Assembly (NCBI GenBank): GCA_945876015.1
Contig: CAMCNM010000005.1
Location: 1-20,586 of the forward strand
Direction: 5' to 3'
Source of the DNA: Gemmatimonas phototrophica
GTDB taxonomy: Bacteria > Gemmatimonadota > Gemmatimonadetes > Longimicrobiales > Gaopeijiaceae
Length of the DNA stretch: 20,586 nucleotides
Within the stretch, counting starts at the first letter, position 1, and each line of letters starts with the position of its first letter. The position numbers and the translations under genes were made by a program. Under the pieces are notes generated by a model. The model saw only the letters and a program-made list of their open reading frames with translations, ran no database searches and was not told where the DNA came from. This document shows positions 5,325 through 20,341 of the stretch, in pieces.

Positions 5325-6569
5325 ATGACCTTGTATCGGATCTCCGAGGTCACGCTCACGGCCTCGTCCACCGAGCGCGCCTACCAGGATATCCTGGAGG
5401 AGCTGTGCAAGGCGACGGCGTTCCCCATCGCCGCGATCCTCCGCTTCGATCCCGAGCGCGACCGGCTCGTCGTGACCGCGGCGTGGGGCTTGCCCACCGA
5501 CGTGGCCCGGGTCGAAATGCAGGTCCACGACTCGCTCGCCGGTGTGGCGGTGCGCACCGGGCAGCCCGTGGCCGAGTTCAACGCGGGCGCGCGCCGCGAG
5601 ATGGCGAACGACCTGCTGCACGATCTCGGCATCCAGACGTACCTGGCGTTCCCGATGGTGGTGAGCCAGGAGGTGGCCGGCACGCTGATCTTCGCCCACA
5701 CCCAGGCGATGGAGCCCGACCGCAGGCTGGTCCGCTGGGCCGAATCGCTCGCCAACGGGGTCGCGCAGTTCATCGATCGGGTGACCGCGCATGAGGAATT
5801 GAAGGAGAGCGAGCAGGGTTACCGAAGGCTCGCGGAGGAGCTGCAGCAGGCGAACCTGGAGCTCGAGCGGTTCGCCTATTCCGTATCCCACGACCTGCGC
5901 GCTCCGCTCCGCACCATGCAGGGCTTCGCCCACGCGCTGATCCAGAACTTCGGCGACCGGCTGCCCGGAAAGGCGCGCGACTACGCGCAGCGCATCATCG
6001 CCTCGGGGCAGATGTCCGAGATCTTGATCCGCGACCTCCTGGCGTACAGCCGGCTGAGCTTCGAGGATCTCGAGCTCCAGCCCGTCGCGCTAACCAAGGT
6101 GGTCGAGGCGGCCTGCGAGCAGCTGGAGGGCGACCTGAAGGAAACGAACACGGACCTGGCCGTCGAAGGCGATCTGCCCCAGGTTCTCGGGCAGACCACT
6201 CCGCTGGTGCAGGTGCTGGCCAACCTGATCTCGAACGCGATCAAGTTCGTCCCGGTGGGCCGGCGTCCCCGCATCCGCATCCGCGCCGAGGAGAACGACC
6301 GGTGGGTGCGGCTCTGGGTGCAGGACAACGGGATCGGCATTCCCACCGGCCAGGAGGACCGCATCTTCCGCGTGTTCGAGCGCCTCACCGAGGGCGGTGC
6401 CCGCCCCGGAACCGGAATCGGGCTGGCCATCGTACGGAGGGGGATGGAGCGAATGAGCGGGCGCGCCGGAGTCGAAGCCGTCAAGGGCGGCGAAGGCAGC
6501 GCGTTCTGGCTCGACATCCCCCGCGTCGAAGGCGCGTCCAAGGGCGCGTGGCGCCGCAAGAAGAGCTGA
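5325..6569 (+). CDS. GAF-domain sensor histidine kinase (C-terminal part of a hybrid kinase)
   Basis: The protein is 414 aa from the ATG at 5325. A GAF domain occupies residues about 10-155 (TAFPIAAILRFDPERDRLVV, GIQTYLAFPMVV). A coiled linker (QQANLELERFAY) leads to the H-box SVSHDLRAP with His189, the N-box NLISNAIKF, the G1 box VQDNGIGIP, the F-box IFRVFERL and the G2 box GTGIGLAIV. It is a soluble kinase with no membrane segment. Codons just before the ATG (KDL) continue the linker of the receiver-PAS segment, so this is probably the 3' part of one longer gene split by an extra base at about 5315. Initiation at 5325 could still give a working GAF kinase. Its stop is 7 nt before the next gene. 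Confidence 0.82.
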   Translation: MTLYRISEVTLTASSTERAYQDILEELCKATAFPIAAILRFDPERDRLVVTAAWGLPTDVARVEMQVHDSLAGVAVRTGQPVAEFNAGARREMANDLLHDLGIQTYLAFPMVVSQEVAGTLIFAHTQAMEPDRRLVRWAESLANGVAQFIDRVTAHEELKESEQGYRRLAEELQQANLELERFAYSVSHDLRAPLRTMQGFAHALIQNFGDRLPGKARDYAQRIIASGQMSEILIRDLLAYSRLSFEDLELQPVALTKVVEAACEQLEGDLKETNTDLAVEGDLPQVLGQTTPLVQVLANLISNAIKFVPVGRRPRIRIRAEENDRWVRLWVQDNGIGIPTGQEDRIFRVFERLTEGGARPGTGIGLAIVRRGMERMSGRAGVEAVKGGEGSAFWLDIPRVEGASKGAWRRKKS

Positions 6570-15137: not shown

Positions 15138-15336
15138 CGCAGTTCGATTCTTGGGTTGCCGGGAAGCCCTGGGCGACGCCGGGTATCTAACCGGCTCAGT
15201 CGGGAAATATGGCCGTGAAGGCGGTCCGTGACTAGCGGACCCGCTCTCCAACTTTGGCCTCAACCTGCCCACCGGCATTAGTTTCCCCCCCGTTGGGCCA
15301 AGCCGCGCCGATTCGATCAGCCCCCCCGGAGTGTTC
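15138..15336. promoter_or_regulatory. Divergent intergenic region between the reductase and the outer-membrane gene
   Basis: This 199-bp gap must hold the promoters of both divergent genes. GGAG at 15328-15331 is a good SD for the plus-strand ATG at 15337. An AT-richer patch with GTATCTAACC and GGGAAATATGG (about 15182-15214) is the likeliest promoter or operator area. No -35/-10 pair or dyad is clear enough to name, and no riboswitch was recognised. Confidence 0.4.
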
Positions 15337-17643
15337 ATGCGAAAGACCTGGCTCCCCCTTGGTGTGTCCCTCTCTCTCGTCCTCGCCGGCGGACTGGACG
15401 CCCAGGCGGCACCCGCCCAACGCTCGATCGCGACCACCCGGATCGCCCCGAACGAGGAGATCCAGCTCGACGGCAGGCTGGACGAAGCGGCCTGGCAGCG
15501 GGCGACCCCCGCGAGCGGCTTCCTCCAGGTGGAGCCGCAGAATGGCCAGCCCGCTTCGGAGGCCACCGAGGTCCGCGTCCTGATCGACGGCGACCGGCTG
15601 ATCTTCGGCGTCTTCGCCCACGACTCGAACCCCGACGGGATCATCGCGAACACTCTCCAGCGGGACGCCCCGTTCATCGCGGACGACCGCTTCATGCTCG
15701 CCCTCGACAGCTATCGGGACGGGCGGAGCGGATACTTCTTCGAGGTGAACCCTTCCGGGGGAATGGCTGACGGCCTGCTGGGCGGCCCGCAGCCGGGAGG
15801 TGGGGGCGGGGGAGGCGGCGGGGGAGGCGGCGGTGGAGGCGGCGGTGGAGGCGGGGGCGGTGGTGGCGGGGGCGGCGGAGCCGGCTTCTACGGCGGCCCC
15901 GGAAGCCCGAACAAGGCGTGGGACGGCATCTGGATGGCGCGCGTCGTGCGCGATCCGCGCGGGTGGACTGCGGAGATCGAGGTTCCCTTCGGCACGCTCA
16001 ACTTCGACCCGAACATCACGGCGTGGGGGATCAACTTCCAACGCACCATCCGCCGCAAGAACGAGGAGACGCGCTGGAACGGCTTCGCCCGCAACCAGCA
16101 GGTCTGGCAGATGTCTATGGCCGGCGTGGTCGAAGGAATAGCGGAGATCAGCCAGGGCCTCGGCCTGGACGTGAAGCCATACTTCATCGGCCGCGCGTCC
16201 GCGACGCCCGCGACCGCGGCGCCGTCCGCGTACAAGGGCGACGTGGGCGGCGACGTGTCGTACAACATCACGCCCAACCTGCGCGCGAACCTCACGATCA
16301 ACACCGATTTCGCGGAAACCGAGATCGACGACCGCCAGGTCAACCTGACGCGGTTTCCGCTGCGCTTCCCGGAGAAGCGCGAGTTCTTCCTGCAGGGCAC
16401 CGGCGTGTTCGGGCTCGCCGGGGATCCCGACGTGTTCTTCAGCCGCCGCATCGGCCTGAACGACGGCGCGATCCAGCCGATCGACGCCGGGCTCAAGCTC
16501 GTCGGACAGATGGGGAAGTTCGACCTGGGCGCGCTCCAGGTGCGCACACGCCAGTACGACCGGACCGCGGAGCTCGGGGGTGACCTGCCGGGCGAGGACT
16601 TCACCGTCGTGCGCACGCGCCGCCGCTTCGGCTCGCAGTCGCACTTCGGAGCCCTCTACACGCGCCGCGACCAACGAGGCACGGACGCGGAGCAGCTGCA
16701 GACGGCGGGAATGGATCTCCGGCTCGCGACCACGAACCTGATGGGCAAGGGCCTCAACCTGAACTGGCGCTCCAGCTACATCTGGACCACCGACGCGCGT
16801 TCCGACGACGCCGGCCGGAGCGACAAGTTCAGCTTCGCGCTCGACTATCCGAACGACGTGTGGAATTTCCGCATCCAGTCGGACTGGATCGGGGAGGACT
16901 ACGATCCCGCGGTCGGCTTCAAGTTCAGGGGTGGCATTCGTCAGTACGACCTCCAGGCTTTCTGGAACCCACGGCCGGGCCCAGGATCGGCCATCCGCCA
17001 GCTCAACTTCGGTGTCGCGCCGAACCTGGTGACCGACCCGTCCAACCAGAAGCTGAGCCATCGGATCCAGATCAAGCCGCTCGGCATCAACTTCCAGTCG
17101 GGCGAAAACGTGAGCGTCACCGTCATACCCAACTGGGAGCGGCTCGACACCGACTTCCGCCTGCCCGGCGACATTCTCCTGCTCGAGGGCGGCGAGTACG
17201 ACTACACGCGCTACAACGTGTCGGTCGGCACGGCGGACCAGCGCCTCATGTCGGGATTCGCGAGCGTCGAGATCGGCGACTTCTACTCGGGAACCCGCCG
17301 CGACCTGAACCTGATCGGCACCGTTCGACCCTGGACGGGAATCTCGCTCAACGTGAACGGACAGTGGAGCCGGCTCGAGCTGGCCGAAGGGAGCGTCTCG
17401 ACCACGGTGCTCCAGGCCAAGCTCGGGACGCAGCTCAACCCGTGGGTCTCGTTCAACAACAACATCCAGTACGACAACCAGAGCCGTGCGCTCGGCTGGC
17501 AGGCCCGCTTCCGCTGGACCCTGACTCCCGGGAGCGACGTGTTCTTCGTCTACTCGCACAACTGGATCGACCCGCTGATCGGCGGCCTCTACACGAACGA
17601 CCGCACCGCCGCGACCAAGGTCGTCTTCACCCGCCGATTCTGA
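15337..17643 (+). CDS. DUF5916-type outer-membrane protein with CBM9-like N-domain and poly-glycine tract
   Basis: The protein is 768 aa. The ATG at 15337 has GGAG 5 nt upstream and is preferred over the GTG at 15331. A signal peptide (hydrophobic 6-18, cleavage near DAQA) precedes a CBM9-like beta-sandwich (IQLDGRLDEAAWQRA, VRVLIDGDRLIFGVFAHDS, DDRFMLALDSY, GYFFEVNPSG). This domain is interrupted at residues 154-181 by 28 consecutive Gly codons, then resumes (WDGIWMARV, GWTAEIEVPFGTLNF, WGINFQRTIRRKNEE). From about residue 260 amphipathic strands run to a C-terminal Phe (VVFTRRF), as in outer-membrane barrels, with the DUF5916 block FPEKREFFLQGTGVF. Function is unknown in the family; surface glycan or nutrient binding is a guess. 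Its stop directly abuts the convergent folP stop (TGATCA). Confidence 0.85.
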   Translation: MRKTWLPLGVSLSLVLAGGLDAQAAPAQRSIATTRIAPNEEIQLDGRLDEAAWQRATPASGFLQVEPQNGQPASEATEVRVLIDGDRLIFGVFAHDSNPDGIIANTLQRDAPFIADDRFMLALDSYRDGRSGYFFEVNPSGGMADGLLGGPQPGGGGGGGGGGGGGGGGGGGGGGGGGGGGAGFYGGPGSPNKAWDGIWMARVVRDPRGWTAEIEVPFGTLNFDPNITAWGINFQRTIRRKNEETRWNGFARNQQVWQMSMAGVVEGIAEISQGLGLDVKPYFIGRASATPATAAPSAYKGDVGGDVSYNITPNLRANLTINTDFAETEIDDRQVNLTRFPLRFPEKREFFLQGTGVFGLAGDPDVFFSRRIGLNDGAIQPIDAGLKLVGQMGKFDLGALQVRTRQYDRTAELGGDLPGEDFTVVRTRRRFGSQSHFGALYTRRDQRGTDAEQLQTAGMDLRLATTNLMGKGLNLNWRSSYIWTTDARSDDAGRSDKFSFALDYPNDVWNFRIQSDWIGEDYDPAVGFKFRGGIRQYDLQAFWNPRPGPGSAIRQLNFGVAPNLVTDPSNQKLSHRIQIKPLGINFQSGENVSVTVIPNWERLDTDFRLPGDILLLEGGEYDYTRYNVSVGTADQRLMSGFASVEIGDFYSGTRRDLNLIGTVRPWTGISLNVNGQWSRLELAEGSVSTTVLQAKLGTQLNPWVSFNNNIQYDNQSRALGWQARFRWTLTPGSDVFFVYSHNWIDPLIGGLYTNDRTAATKVVFTRRF
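15796..15879 (+). repeat. Poly-glycine codon tract (28 GGN codons)
   Basis: There are 28 uninterrupted GGN codons using all four third bases. They include two copies of GGC-GGC-GGT-GGA, a sign of local duplication followed by drift. The tract lies inside a loop of the CBM9-like domain of the outer-membrane protein. Confidence 0.95.
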
Positions 17644-18519
17644 TCATCCGCCCGGGCGCCGGCGCACCACCGCGTCGGCGATCCGGGCCACCCGCGCCAT
17701 CTGCGCGACGTCGTGCACGCGCACGATGTCGGCACCCCGGTCGATGCACAGCGTGACCGCCGCCGCGGTGCCCTCGGTCCGCTGGTCCGGCGGAAGGTTG
17801 AGCGTGTAGCCGACGAACGACTTCCGGGACGGCCCGACCAGGATCGGCCTGCCCAGCGAAGCGATCTCGGAGAGCCGATCCACCAGCTCGAGGTTCTGCT
17901 CGACGGTCTTCCCGAAGCCGATGCCCGGATCGACGATCAGCCGATCCTCCCGCACGCCGGCGCGCAGGGCCAGCTCGATCGACTCCCCAAGCTCGCGCGC
18001 GATGTCCTCCATCAGGTCGCCGTACTCGACGCCCACGTAACGTCCGCCGAGGTGGGCCTCCTGCACCGCGTCCTTGGGGCGGCTGCGGTTGTGCATCAGC
18101 ACGACCGCCACGCCGGCTTCGGCCGCGACCCCGGCGAGGTCGGGGTCCATGCGCAGGCCCCACACGTCGTTCAGGATGGTCGCGCCCGCGGCGATGGCCT
18201 GGCGGGCCACTTCGGCTTTGTAGGTGTCGATCGAGATGGGAACGGACACGCGGCCGGCGAGCGCGCGGACCACGGGGATCGTGCGACGTAGCTCTTCCTC
18301 GAGGGGGATCGGCTCGCTGCCGGGGCGGGTGGACTCTCCGCCGACGTCGAGGAGATGGGCGCCCGCGGCGACCTGGGCCTCGGCCAGCGCGACCGCCCGC
18401 TCGACCTCGACCACGCCGTCCCCCGAAAACGAATCGGGGGTCACGTTCAGGATCCCCATCACGTAGGTCCGGCTCCCCCACTCGAAGGTGTGGGGGCTTA
18501 CGGTCAGCGAACCGGCCAA
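17644..18519 (-). CDS. folP: Dihydropteroate synthase
   Basis: The protein is 291 aa from a TTG at 18519, which overlaps the 3' end of folK by 16 bp. GAGG lies 8 nt upstream and no ATG/GTG would keep the first strand. A CTG at about 18507 is an alternative. All DHPS motifs are present: MGILNVTPDSFSGDG, LLDVGGESTRPGSEP, ISIDTYKAEVARQA, ILNDVWG, IVDPGIGFGKT, LVGPSRKSFVG, and VRVHDV at the end. It condenses 6-hydroxymethyl-dihydropterin pyrophosphate with p-aminobenzoate to dihydropteroate and is the sulfonamide target. It is the last gene of the CADD-COG0720-folK-folP operon. Its stop abuts the convergent outer-membrane gene with no space for a terminator. Confidence 0.92.
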   Translation of the reverse strand: MAGSLTVSPHTFEWGSRTYVMGILNVTPDSFSGDGVVEVERAVALAEAQVAAGAHLLDVGGESTRPGSEPIPLEEELRRTIPVVRALAGRVSVPISIDTYKAEVARQAIAAGATILNDVWGLRMDPDLAGVAAEAGVAVVLMHNRSRPKDAVQEAHLGGRYVGVEYGDLMEDIARELGESIELALRAGVREDRLIVDPGIGFGKTVEQNLELVDRLSEIASLGRPILVGPSRKSFVGYTLNLPPDQRTEGTAAAVTLCIDRGADIVRVHDVAQMARVARIADAVVRRRPGG

Positions 18520-19007
18520 ACCTTCCGCCTCTCGGCATCGGGGAGCTGCCGGAGCAGGTCGCGGATGCTCATGCCGAGCGTCGGATGTTCGACCTCGGGA
18601 GCGACGTCGTTCAGCGGGACGAGGACGAACGACCGCTCGTGCAGGAGCGGATGGGGCACGGTCAGCTCGGGCGTCTCGATCACGAGATCGTCGAAGAACA
18701 GGAGATCGAGATCGATCAGGCGGGGGCCGAAACGCTCTTCGGGGGCGCGACCGAGCGCCACTTCCGTCTGCTTCAGGTGGGCGAGCGCGTCCTGACTCGA
18801 CAGCGTCGTGGTGGCCCGGCAGCACTGATTGTAGAACCTCGGCTGGTTCACCTCGTAGGCCGGCTCGGACTCGTAGATCGGGGAGACGGAGATCACCTGG
18901 AACGATTCGCCGAGAGCGTCCAGCGCCAGACGGAGATTCTCGGCACGATCTCCCAGATTGGTGCCGAGAGCCAGGTACGTCGTGTGGACCTTCTCGGCGC
19001 GTTGCAC
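18504..19007 (-). CDS. folK: 6-hydroxymethyl-7,8-dihydropterin pyrophosphokinase
   Basis: The protein is 167 aa, typical for HPPK. LALGTNLGDRAENL is the N-terminal nucleotide/pterin loop, VSPIYESEPAYEVNQPRFYN the central block, and RFGPRLIDLDLLFFDD the HPPK signature with the two magnesium-binding Asp. VPHPLLHERSFVLVPL is the C-terminal motif. It transfers pyrophosphate from ATP to 6-hydroxymethyl-dihydropterin for FolP. The GTG start at 19007 has AGGGG close upstream and lies 11 nt after the COG0720 stop. There is no folB fusion or neighbour, unlike many folB-folK-folP clusters, so the pterin substrate probably comes from the adjacent COG0720 enzyme. Confidence 0.93.
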   Translation of the reverse strand: MQRAEKVHTTYLALGTNLGDRAENLRLALDALGESFQVISVSPIYESEPAYEVNQPRFYNQCCRATTTLSSQDALAHLKQTEVALGRAPEERFGPRLIDLDLLFFDDLVIETPELTVPHPLLHERSFVLVPLNDVAPEVEHPTLGMSIRDLLRQLPDAERRKVWPVR

Positions 19008-19018
19008 GGTCCCCTGCT

Positions 19019-19516
19019 CTACCGGGCCACGCGCTTCAGCTCTCTACGAAACACCGCGGATTGTCCGGGCGTCTCCTCGATCTCGACCTCGAGCGCGGTC
19101 AGATGATCCGCGCCATCCGCGGCCAGATCCACCGCGAGCTGATCGGCGATCCACACTGCGATGTGCTCCGCGGTCGTGTTCGGGATGGGGAGCTGCACCA
19201 CGTCCTCGCGCGGGAAGACGTAGGTCTTGTGCTGGTATCTGACCGTGTACCCGACGGCGTCCGCTCGGATGTCGAGATGGGGATTGTCCGTGGGGAGCAA
19301 CATGCGGTGGTCCAGCCGGTCGCACACCGCCTTCATCATCCGTTTCAGGGTGACGAAGTTGAAGACGAACTCGCTCTCGCCGAGCGGCCCCTCCAAGGTC
19401 ACCGCGGCGCGGTAGTTGTGACCGTGGAGGGGCTCACAGGAACCCGAGTACGTGATGAAGTGGCCCGCGCAGAAGACCAGGCTGTCCTTGACGACGCGAA
19501 CCTTGAAAGCCTGCAT
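19019..19516 (-). CDS. COG0720 6-pyruvoyl-tetrahydropterin synthase/QueD-family enzyme, PTPS-I/III-like motif
   Basis: The protein is 165 aa, longer than the about 120 aa of E. coli QueD because of an insert near residues 75-105 (HLDIRADAVGYTVRY, YVFPREDVV). Zinc ligands are His19 (FCAGHF), His31 and His33 (LHGH). Cys27 and Glu28 form CEPLHGH. Asp69-His70 (LDHRML) and the late Glu (EIEETPG) complete the site. The usual DF after the second strand is NF here (FVFNFVTLK). The family converts dihydroneopterin triphosphate to carboxy-, pyruvoyl- or hydroxymethyl-pterins. As I recall, CExxHGH marks dual PTPS-I/III enzymes that can feed both queuosine and folate. Its place just before folK-folP and the lack of folB favour a folate role. 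GGCGGA repeats just upstream serve as SD. Confidence 0.85.
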   Translation of the reverse strand: MQAFKVRVVKDSLVFCAGHFITYSGSCEPLHGHNYRAAVTLEGPLGESEFVFNFVTLKRMMKAVCDRLDHRMLLPTDNPHLDIRADAVGYTVRYQHKTYVFPREDVVQLPIPNTTAEHIAVWIADQLAVDLAADGADHLTALEVEIEETPGQSAVFRRELKRVAR

Positions 19517-19538
19517 GGGTCCGCCTATCCGCCTCGAA

Positions 19539-20240
19539 TCAAGCGATCACTGCCTTCGCCGTGGCGCACGCGATCCCGGCCTCGGCGCACACTCCGTCGA
19601 GGAGCTGCCAGTACGCCTTGAGCGTGTCGGCCGCCGCGCCGAGAACCTCATCGGCATCGGCGCCCTGGTCGAGGCAGCGCCCCAGCGTCTCGCGCTCACC
19701 CTGGCGATGCTCGAGATCCAGGGTCGCGTGGACGGAAAAGTACCGGAGGCCCTTGTCGCTCGTGATCCCGTAGTGATCGCGGAGTCCGTGCATCTTGGTC
19801 TCGGAGACCTCGGGCTGCTGCGACTCGTACGCGTACAGCGCGGCCAGCGCGGCCGCGGTCGTGCCGCGCGCGTTCGCGCGGAGCGTCTCGACCATGCACT
19901 CCGCGGAACGGTGGACCACGTCGGACGCGACCTGCGCACGATCCAGTCCGAGCTCCTCGGCGAAGTCGAGCCACAGCTCAGGGTGCGGCGCGGGCTGTCC
20001 GAGCTCGTCGGCCAGGTTGCGTGCCAGCTCCTCGCGGGCGTCGGCGTCGGTCGCCCGGGCGACAGCGTCCCTCAAGTGCCCCGGGAAGGCCGCGACGTGG
20101 GGATAGTAGATCCGTGCGTACGTCGCCAGTTGACCCTGCGTCAGCTCGCCCCGCTGCCAAGCCTGGTAGAACGGATGGGCGAGGATGGAATGGGTCGCGA
20201 CCAGCCCGTCGAGTCGATCCAGCACCTGCGCACGATTCAT
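19539..20240 (-). CDS. CADD-like di-metal protein, probable self-sacrificing p-aminobenzoate synthase
   Basis: The protein is 233 aa from the ATG at 20240 (AGGGGAG upstream), close to the about 231 aa of Chlamydia CADD, and belongs to the heme-oxygenase-like/TenA-PqqC fold. Opening blocks are HPFYQAWQRGELTQ and YARIYYPHVAAFPGHL. Metal ligands appear as Glu79 and His86 (DELGQPAPH), Glu139 (YAYES) and His171, Asp175, His178 (HATLDLEH), with the same spacings as the CADD ligands I recall (81/88/142/174/178/181). Tyr25, Tyr41, Tyr138 and Lys149 match CADD Tyr27, Tyr43, Tyr141 and Lys152, the residues linked to pABA formation from the protein's own side chains. It leads a folate operon, 22 nt before the COG0720 gene, which supports a pABA role. 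Confidence 0.85.
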   Translation of the reverse strand: MNRAQVLDRLDGLVATHSILAHPFYQAWQRGELTQGQLATYARIYYPHVAAFPGHLRDAVARATDADAREELARNLADELGQPAPHPELWLDFAEELGLDRAQVASDVVHRSAECMVETLRANARGTTAAALAALYAYESQQPEVSETKMHGLRDHYGITSDKGLRYFSVHATLDLEHRQGERETLGRCLDQGADADEVLGAAADTLKAYWQLLDGVCAEAGIACATAKAVIA

Positions 20241-20302: not shown

Positions 20303-20341
20303 CGAAAAACGAAGCGGCCGCGCGACGCTCGGGCGGCCGCC
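20303..20341 (-). terminator. Intrinsic terminator after the partial right-end gene
   Basis: On the minus strand, GCGGCCGC (20340-20333) pairs with GCGGCCGC (20321-20314) across an 11-nt loop. TTCG and then five Ts (20309-20305) follow. It lies 22 nt after the stop at 20363. It separates that gene from the folate operon, whose promoter should be in 20241-20302; no clear -35/-10 was found there. Confidence 0.8.

Follow-up and report, generated by a model that had tools for sequence, protein, structure and literature searches.

In Chlamydia and Wolbachia, the gene for the p-aminobenzoate (pABA) synthase CADD clusters with folABKP, folB included (excerpt of PMC1971073). The sacrificial tyrosine and lysine of such enzymes are Y27 and K152 in CtCADD and Y25 and K159 in NePabS (excerpt of PMC11965152), and a ligand set of three histidines and three carboxylates is described in part of PMC13108848. 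In the PTPS family, according to an excerpt of PMC5041015, the motif CxxxHGH marks QueD and ExxHGH the folate enzyme PTPS-III, with a CExxHGH enzyme possible and hybrids serving both pathways. In Rickettsia, TIGR04305 genes are mostly broken and the PTPS is of the canonical QueD type in the excerpt of PMC5615194, the enzyme being called PTPS-III instead in that of PMC4674097, and sul4 has been proposed to stem from the folate region of a Chloroflexi chromosome (excerpt of PMC5732528). Here we describe a stretch of 20,586 nucleotides from Gemmatimonas phototrophica (contig CAMCNM010000005.1, hereafter the window), which is contig C5 of genome G000 (1.98 Mb, 276 contigs, 73% complete). Four minus-strand genes at window positions 20240-17644 encode, in this order, a CADD-type pABA synthase, a COG0720/PTPS enzyme, FolK and FolP, and we consider it likely that they form a folate operon bypassing two standard steps. 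This is how an original prediction from the letters of this DNA had read the locus; its reading is supported overall, and the linkage of CADD to folate genes in Chlamydia that it mentioned is borne out by the excerpt of PMC1971073.

All four open reading frames lie at the place and on the strand originally proposed, with gaps of 22 nt between CADD and PTPS and 11 nt between PTPS and FolK, and with one overlap, since FolP, if it starts at TTG, would share 16 nt with folK. CADD (19539..20240, 233 aa, ATG start) exceeds the curated TIGR04305 cut-off (8.7e-60; 201.9 versus 200 bits) and also matches PF14518 and PF03070 (NCBIfam and Pfam), the PTPS enzyme (19019..19516, 165 aa) matches PF01242 at 1.2e-25 (Pfam), FolK (HPPK; 18504..19007, 167 aa, GTG start) exceeds the TIGR01498 cut-off (4.8e-40; 136.7 versus 54.1 bits), and FolP (dihydropteroate synthase; 17644..18519, 291 aa counted from TTG, start codon uncertain) that of TIGR01496 (2.2e-87; 293 versus 162.6 bits). 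The identities of all four gene products, which agree with those first assigned, are far above chance level. The spacing suggests a single transcript; a scan of the region returned no promoter-like sites and two terminator-like sites, both within genes, against 0.9 expected.

The closest solved relatives of the window CADD are CtCADD (1rcw, 5e-36) and then 9pj4, a 4-aminobenzoate synthase (9.4e-32). Its Y25 and K149 align with the sacrificial Y27 and K152 of CtCADD, and E79, H86, E139, H171, D175 and H178 align with the six metal ligands, placed by a CtCADD numbering that we take to be correct. Y138 and Y167 align with CtCADD Y141 and Y170, the positions deciding Mn/Fe versus Fe/Fe preference, and Y41 aligns with Tyr41 of NePabS, where it is essential (both from an excerpt of PMC11965152). 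The sacrificial, ligand and metal-selecting residues and Y41 are invariant across an alignment of 30 sequences, window CADD included, picked from the 120 listed. The AlphaFold model (pLDDT 95.5) has CtCADD 8va9 as its top Foldseek match in the PDB (TM 0.86 by query length, rmsd 1.6, 36% identity). The family match, the retained residues and the modelled fold together support the assignment as a putative CADD-type pABA synthase that had been made at the outset.

The motif of the window PTPS is CEPLHGH, in which the signature Glu and the Cys are both present. The retention of this Cys, together with the two-pathway hybrids of PMC5041015 (as excerpted) and the lack of HGH in the only other PTPS found in G000, would suit an enzyme that acts mainly as QueD in queuosine synthesis, or in both pathways, and whose place in a folate operon reflects shared pterin chemistry. 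We think this unlikely, because the enzyme falls below the cut-off of the QueD model TIGR03367 (70.4 versus 89.25 bits), because PTPS and FolK homologues share 18 contig sizes against 0.88 expected by chance (among the matches listed), and because Glu is invariant and Cys variable: across the window protein and 119 listed homologues of the 2504 found, Glu occurs in 120/120 and Cys in 95/120, which fits the expectation if Glu is the selected residue.

The same Glu can be followed in relatives through a PTPS type other than that of the window, GKCxxxHGH, which was read in 60 of 98 genomes; in the other 38 the motif was lacking in the fetched stretch, or the stretch was not fetched. Glu is present in 41/41 genomes with FolK and no FolB, in 0/4 with both FolK and FolB, and in 5/15 without FolK (Fisher 6.7e-10, uncorrected for kinship); a first count had given 36/36, 0/4 and 5/15. 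The four genomes with FolK and FolB but no Glu (G021, G030, G036, G057) represent four genera, and the FolB-bearing G092 and G095 have a PTPS motif, CAHPHGH, that also lacks it. These counts exclude G085 (GRCE) and a second PTPS type, HKCARLHGHS, which occurs without Glu in G065, G071, G075, G079, G081 and G088 although they have FolK and no FolB; each of these six also has a GKCE-type PTPS. A looser count that pools all PTPS types finds Glu in 40/49 genomes with FolK and 5/29 without. As judged from sequence, the presence of Glu in the GKC-type PTPS is a residue switch that tracks the folate pathway, and its covariation with FolB loss (41/41 versus 0/4) offers a simple sequence test for FolB bypass. 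The predicted role of the COG0720 enzyme in place of FolB, as a bypass enzyme of PTPS-I/III type, is supported by its own Glu and by this correlation. Two side observations may be recorded here. The Glu is missing from the GKC-type PTPS of 10/15 relatives without FolK and of all four read with FolB. The second PTPS of G000 (L166/L172, G000:C257) has HGAT in place of HGH, and its neighbours resemble, by eye from the open reading frames, a dehydrogenase and a glycosyltransferase.

The original prediction had called for a search of the genome for pab genes and folB, and the part of it that was run agrees with the bypass reading: neither FolB (PF02152) nor PabB (TIGR00553) was found in G000, where absences are weak at 73% completeness, or in its congeners G001 and G002, pabA and pabC not having been searched. 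Among 98 genomes, FolB was matched in 17 (16 above cut-off) and PabB reached its cut-off in 39. As only 4/14 control genomes pass this PabB cut-off, chorismate-binding enzymes (PF00425) were counted instead in nine genomes. G000 has a single such enzyme, an isochorismate synthase, and G001 and G002 have one TrpE and one isochorismate synthase each, all above cut-off. CADD occurs at E up to 1e-20 in 8/395 Gemmatimonadota genomes, which have no PF00425 enzyme (G218, G092), one (G000, G095) or two (G001, G057, G356, G406); G218 is a single contig and 93% complete, both enzymes of G057, G356 and G406 are again TrpE and isochorismate synthase, above cut-off, and the single enzyme of G095 has TrpE as its best model, below cut-off. 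None of these enzymes reaches the PabB cut-off, so that all eight CADD-bearing genomes of the phylum lack a PabB by this measure, consistent with the proposal that CADD stands in for it. FolK is present in seven of the eight, including G218 and G092, and is not found in G406 (80% complete). Across the 98 genomes, 66 have FolK, 38 with PabB above cut-off and 28 without; CADD at E <1e-40 occurs in 0/38 of the former versus 5/28 of the latter (hypergeometric 0.011, uncorrected for kinship), or in 2/38 versus 7/28 if the weaker matches of G033, G058, G061 and G086 (1e-10 to 1e-18) are included. One of the five, in G057, has a CADD whose frame is broken after about residue 155 (L005, L111), probably a decaying gene or an assembly error.

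That no CADD-bearing genome of the phylum has a PabB above cut-off also bears on a different account of this protein, in which it would be an HDO oxidase with another substrate, in the operon by chance, with pABA taken up from outside or supplied by a PabB that escaped detection. HDO enzymes do catalyse varied reactions (excerpt of PMC13108848), and the survey of gene order that the original prediction had suggested fell out in two ways: the order PTPS-FolK-FolP is kept in G002, which lacks CADD, and neither PTPS, FolK nor FolP stands beside CADD at any of 32 named-genome loci (phmmer at 1e-3 with the window proteins, on stored flanks of up to 6 kb, shorter at contig ends) or in any of eight stretches from related genomes, four of which repeat named loci. 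Linkage of CADD to folate genes is rare. The retention of the sacrificial residues and all metal ligands nevertheless makes a chance resident decidedly improbable, as do homologues of CADD, PTPS and FolK that lie on contigs of equal size.

Among the best matches listed (119 CADD, 118 PTPS and 120 FolK rows), all three homologues occur on contigs of 96230, 6010 and 2478 bases, CADD and FolK also share the size 2686060, and CADD and PTPS the size 3132. No three-way match arose in the sampled shifted comparisons that served as chance control. CADD and PTPS show six two-way matches against 0.60 by chance, and CADD and FolK four against 0.64; because the shifted comparisons reach a maximum of four in either case, a single two-way match is no proof, and the match at size 1422 and one of the two CADD rows at 6010 may be due to chance. 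In a tree of a chosen subset of 50 rows, the window CADD falls in a clade of 13 rows (support 100/100) that includes four of the five size-matched CADDs, those of 96230, 2686060, 6010 and 3132, that of 2478 lying outside; four of the 12 database CADDs in this clade have a size-matched contig and the other eight have none. These equal sizes suggest that three to five further contigs carry the linkage, which probably extends to some members of a small clade and perhaps to a further lineage. We rejected inheritance of CADD with the genus: the CADD of G001 is 43% identical, has another gene neighbourhood and sits on a long branch of the tree.

The organism-named relatives of the window PTPS and FolK are all Chloroflexota (6/6 each, among the 120 rows listed for each), and the best model for FolP is that of Sul4 (NF033502), which it matches under cut-off (409 versus 600 bits) and which is also the best for the FolP of G002 (402 bits); by sequence, the window FolP is not Sul4 and is best regarded as an ordinary chromosomal relative. 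That binning or assembly brought in a foreign operon, for instance that of a Chloroflexota, is highly improbable, since despite these relatives and a G+C content at third codon positions of CADD, PTPS and FolK (0.84-0.87) slightly under that of two neighbours (0.90-0.92), the overall G+C of the four genes (0.64-0.72) brackets the 0.69 of the window, G002 has the identical PTPS-FolK-FolP order with a PTPS 77% identical (motif CESLHGH), and the four genes lie at one end of the 20.6-kb contig, which we count on the same side.

Our preferred reading, a folate operon with two bypasses, draws directly on gene content, gene order, conserved residues, predicted fold and the lack of a detectable PabB or FolB, from which we infer the chemistry, the co-transcription and the direction of transfer. 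We suggest that CADD would make pABA in a reaction that requires O2 and a dimetal centre, excises the side chain of its own Tyr25 and takes the amine from its own Lys149; with pABA supplied by such self-sacrifice, chorismate and PabABC would be unnecessary. FolE, encoded elsewhere, would supply dihydroneopterin triphosphate, which the PTPS-I/III-type enzyme, by virtue of the Glu beside its usual Cys, would convert directly to 6-hydroxymethyl-dihydropterin, dispensing with the phosphatase and FolB, and FolK and then FolP would complete the path to dihydropteroate. CADD was probably added at the head of an older Chloroflexota-type PTPS-folK-folP operon, or lost from it in G002. We advance only tentatively, and hold it to be somewhat doubtful, that the locus is a portable four-gene cassette, built by that addition and moved between phyla, that would lead from the product of FolE to dihydropteroate with neither chorismate-derived pABA nor FolB. 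If this holds, folate synthesis would be uncoupled from the shikimate pathway outside Chlamydia-like parasites. The operon reading, if true, would show that self-sacrificing pABA synthesis, costly as it is, can belong to a complete alternative folate operon in a host remote from Chlamydia.

Several observations weigh against this reading. The CADD score barely clears its cut-off, and the PTPS keeps its Cys, which makes a QueD-like role possible. The absences in G000 are weak, given its incompleteness and the equally undetected TrpE. The congener G002 (95% complete) keeps the other three genes in order and has neither CADD nor PabB, and 23 of the 28 FolK-bearing relatives without PabB above cut-off, G002 among them, lack CADD (E <1e-40) as well, so that CADD cannot be predicted from a missing PabB; these relatives raise the question of their pABA source. 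Matching contigs by size is indirect evidence of linkage, and for P0008, a member of the window CADD clade, none of the listed PTPS and FolK rows matches its 6.8-Mb contig. Finally, the FolE of G000 (L170:2452-4056, G000:C28) is interrupted by a 329-residue in-frame insert directly before the Cys of CEHH, which we take to be catalytic, so that the pathway would depend on removal of the insert. The insert starts with Cys and ends with His-Asn before that Cys, scores weakly with LAGLIDADG_3 (6e-4, below cut-off) and intein_Nterm (0.12), and has no match in the PDB; it appears intein-like. FolE was found in 18/19 genomes searched and is split only in G000, and a literature search on inteins and GTP cyclohydrolase gave nothing obviously on a split FolE.

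As to surroundings, a G+C-rich inverted repeat followed by a T run (20306..20340, minus strand), read by eye and absent from the output of the terminator scan, may terminate the upstream gene, whose minus-strand 3' end lies 5' of CADD, and so leave CADD as head of the operon. On the other side, a plus-strand gene for a DUF5916 protein (window 15331-17643), which holds a long glycine run, ends at 17643 and abuts the end of FolP. In G002, the opposite-strand gene next upstream of PTPS resembles, on inspection by eye, an arsenate reductase. In L129 (G001:C5), FolE is flanked by two PTPS genes, one with the CxxxxxHGH motif of PTPS-II and one with GKCERLHGH, and by coordinates FolE also has a PTPS gene on either side in G003:C440 and G009:C84. 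At eight verrucomicrobial CADD loci (L041, L045, L049, L050, L051, L054, L058, L059), an AhpC/TSA protein lies directly downstream of CADD in all eight and a PIG-V-like protein upstream in seven (not L051), Pfam having been run on one example of each.

In the open-licence PMC literature, we found no paper that treats CADD, PTPS and folK together, and TIGR04305 appears there in PMC5615194 only; both bypasses are known singly, and their joint operon, whose function we predict from sequence, is apparently undescribed in that literature. Like the Chloroflexota folate region that is the proposed source of sul4, the window has folK just upstream of folP and a FolP that scores best against the Sul4 model, but unlike mobile sul4 its FolP lies on a chromosomal Gemmatimonadota contig with no mobile element seen. 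Similarly, the window PTPS shares with the PTPS-III and PTPS-I/III bypass enzymes the CExxHGH motif, the clustering with folate genes and a genome in which FolB was not found, whereas its operon, unlike the clusters reported for those enzymes in the same literature, includes CADD. NePabS of Nitrosomonas europaea (NE1434) is likewise a self-sacrificing pABA synthase beyond Chlamydia, but it stands apart from other folate synthesis genes and has Phe at the two metal-selecting positions (excerpt of PMC11965152) where the window CADD has Tyr. The likeness to Chlamydia CADD (CT610) extends to the adjoining folate genes, the sacrificial Tyr and Lys, the metal ligands and both Mn/Fe-type tyrosines (Y138, Y167), and in contrast to the clusters of Chlamydia and Wolbachia, the operon described here has a PTPS at the place of folB and a host from a different phylum.

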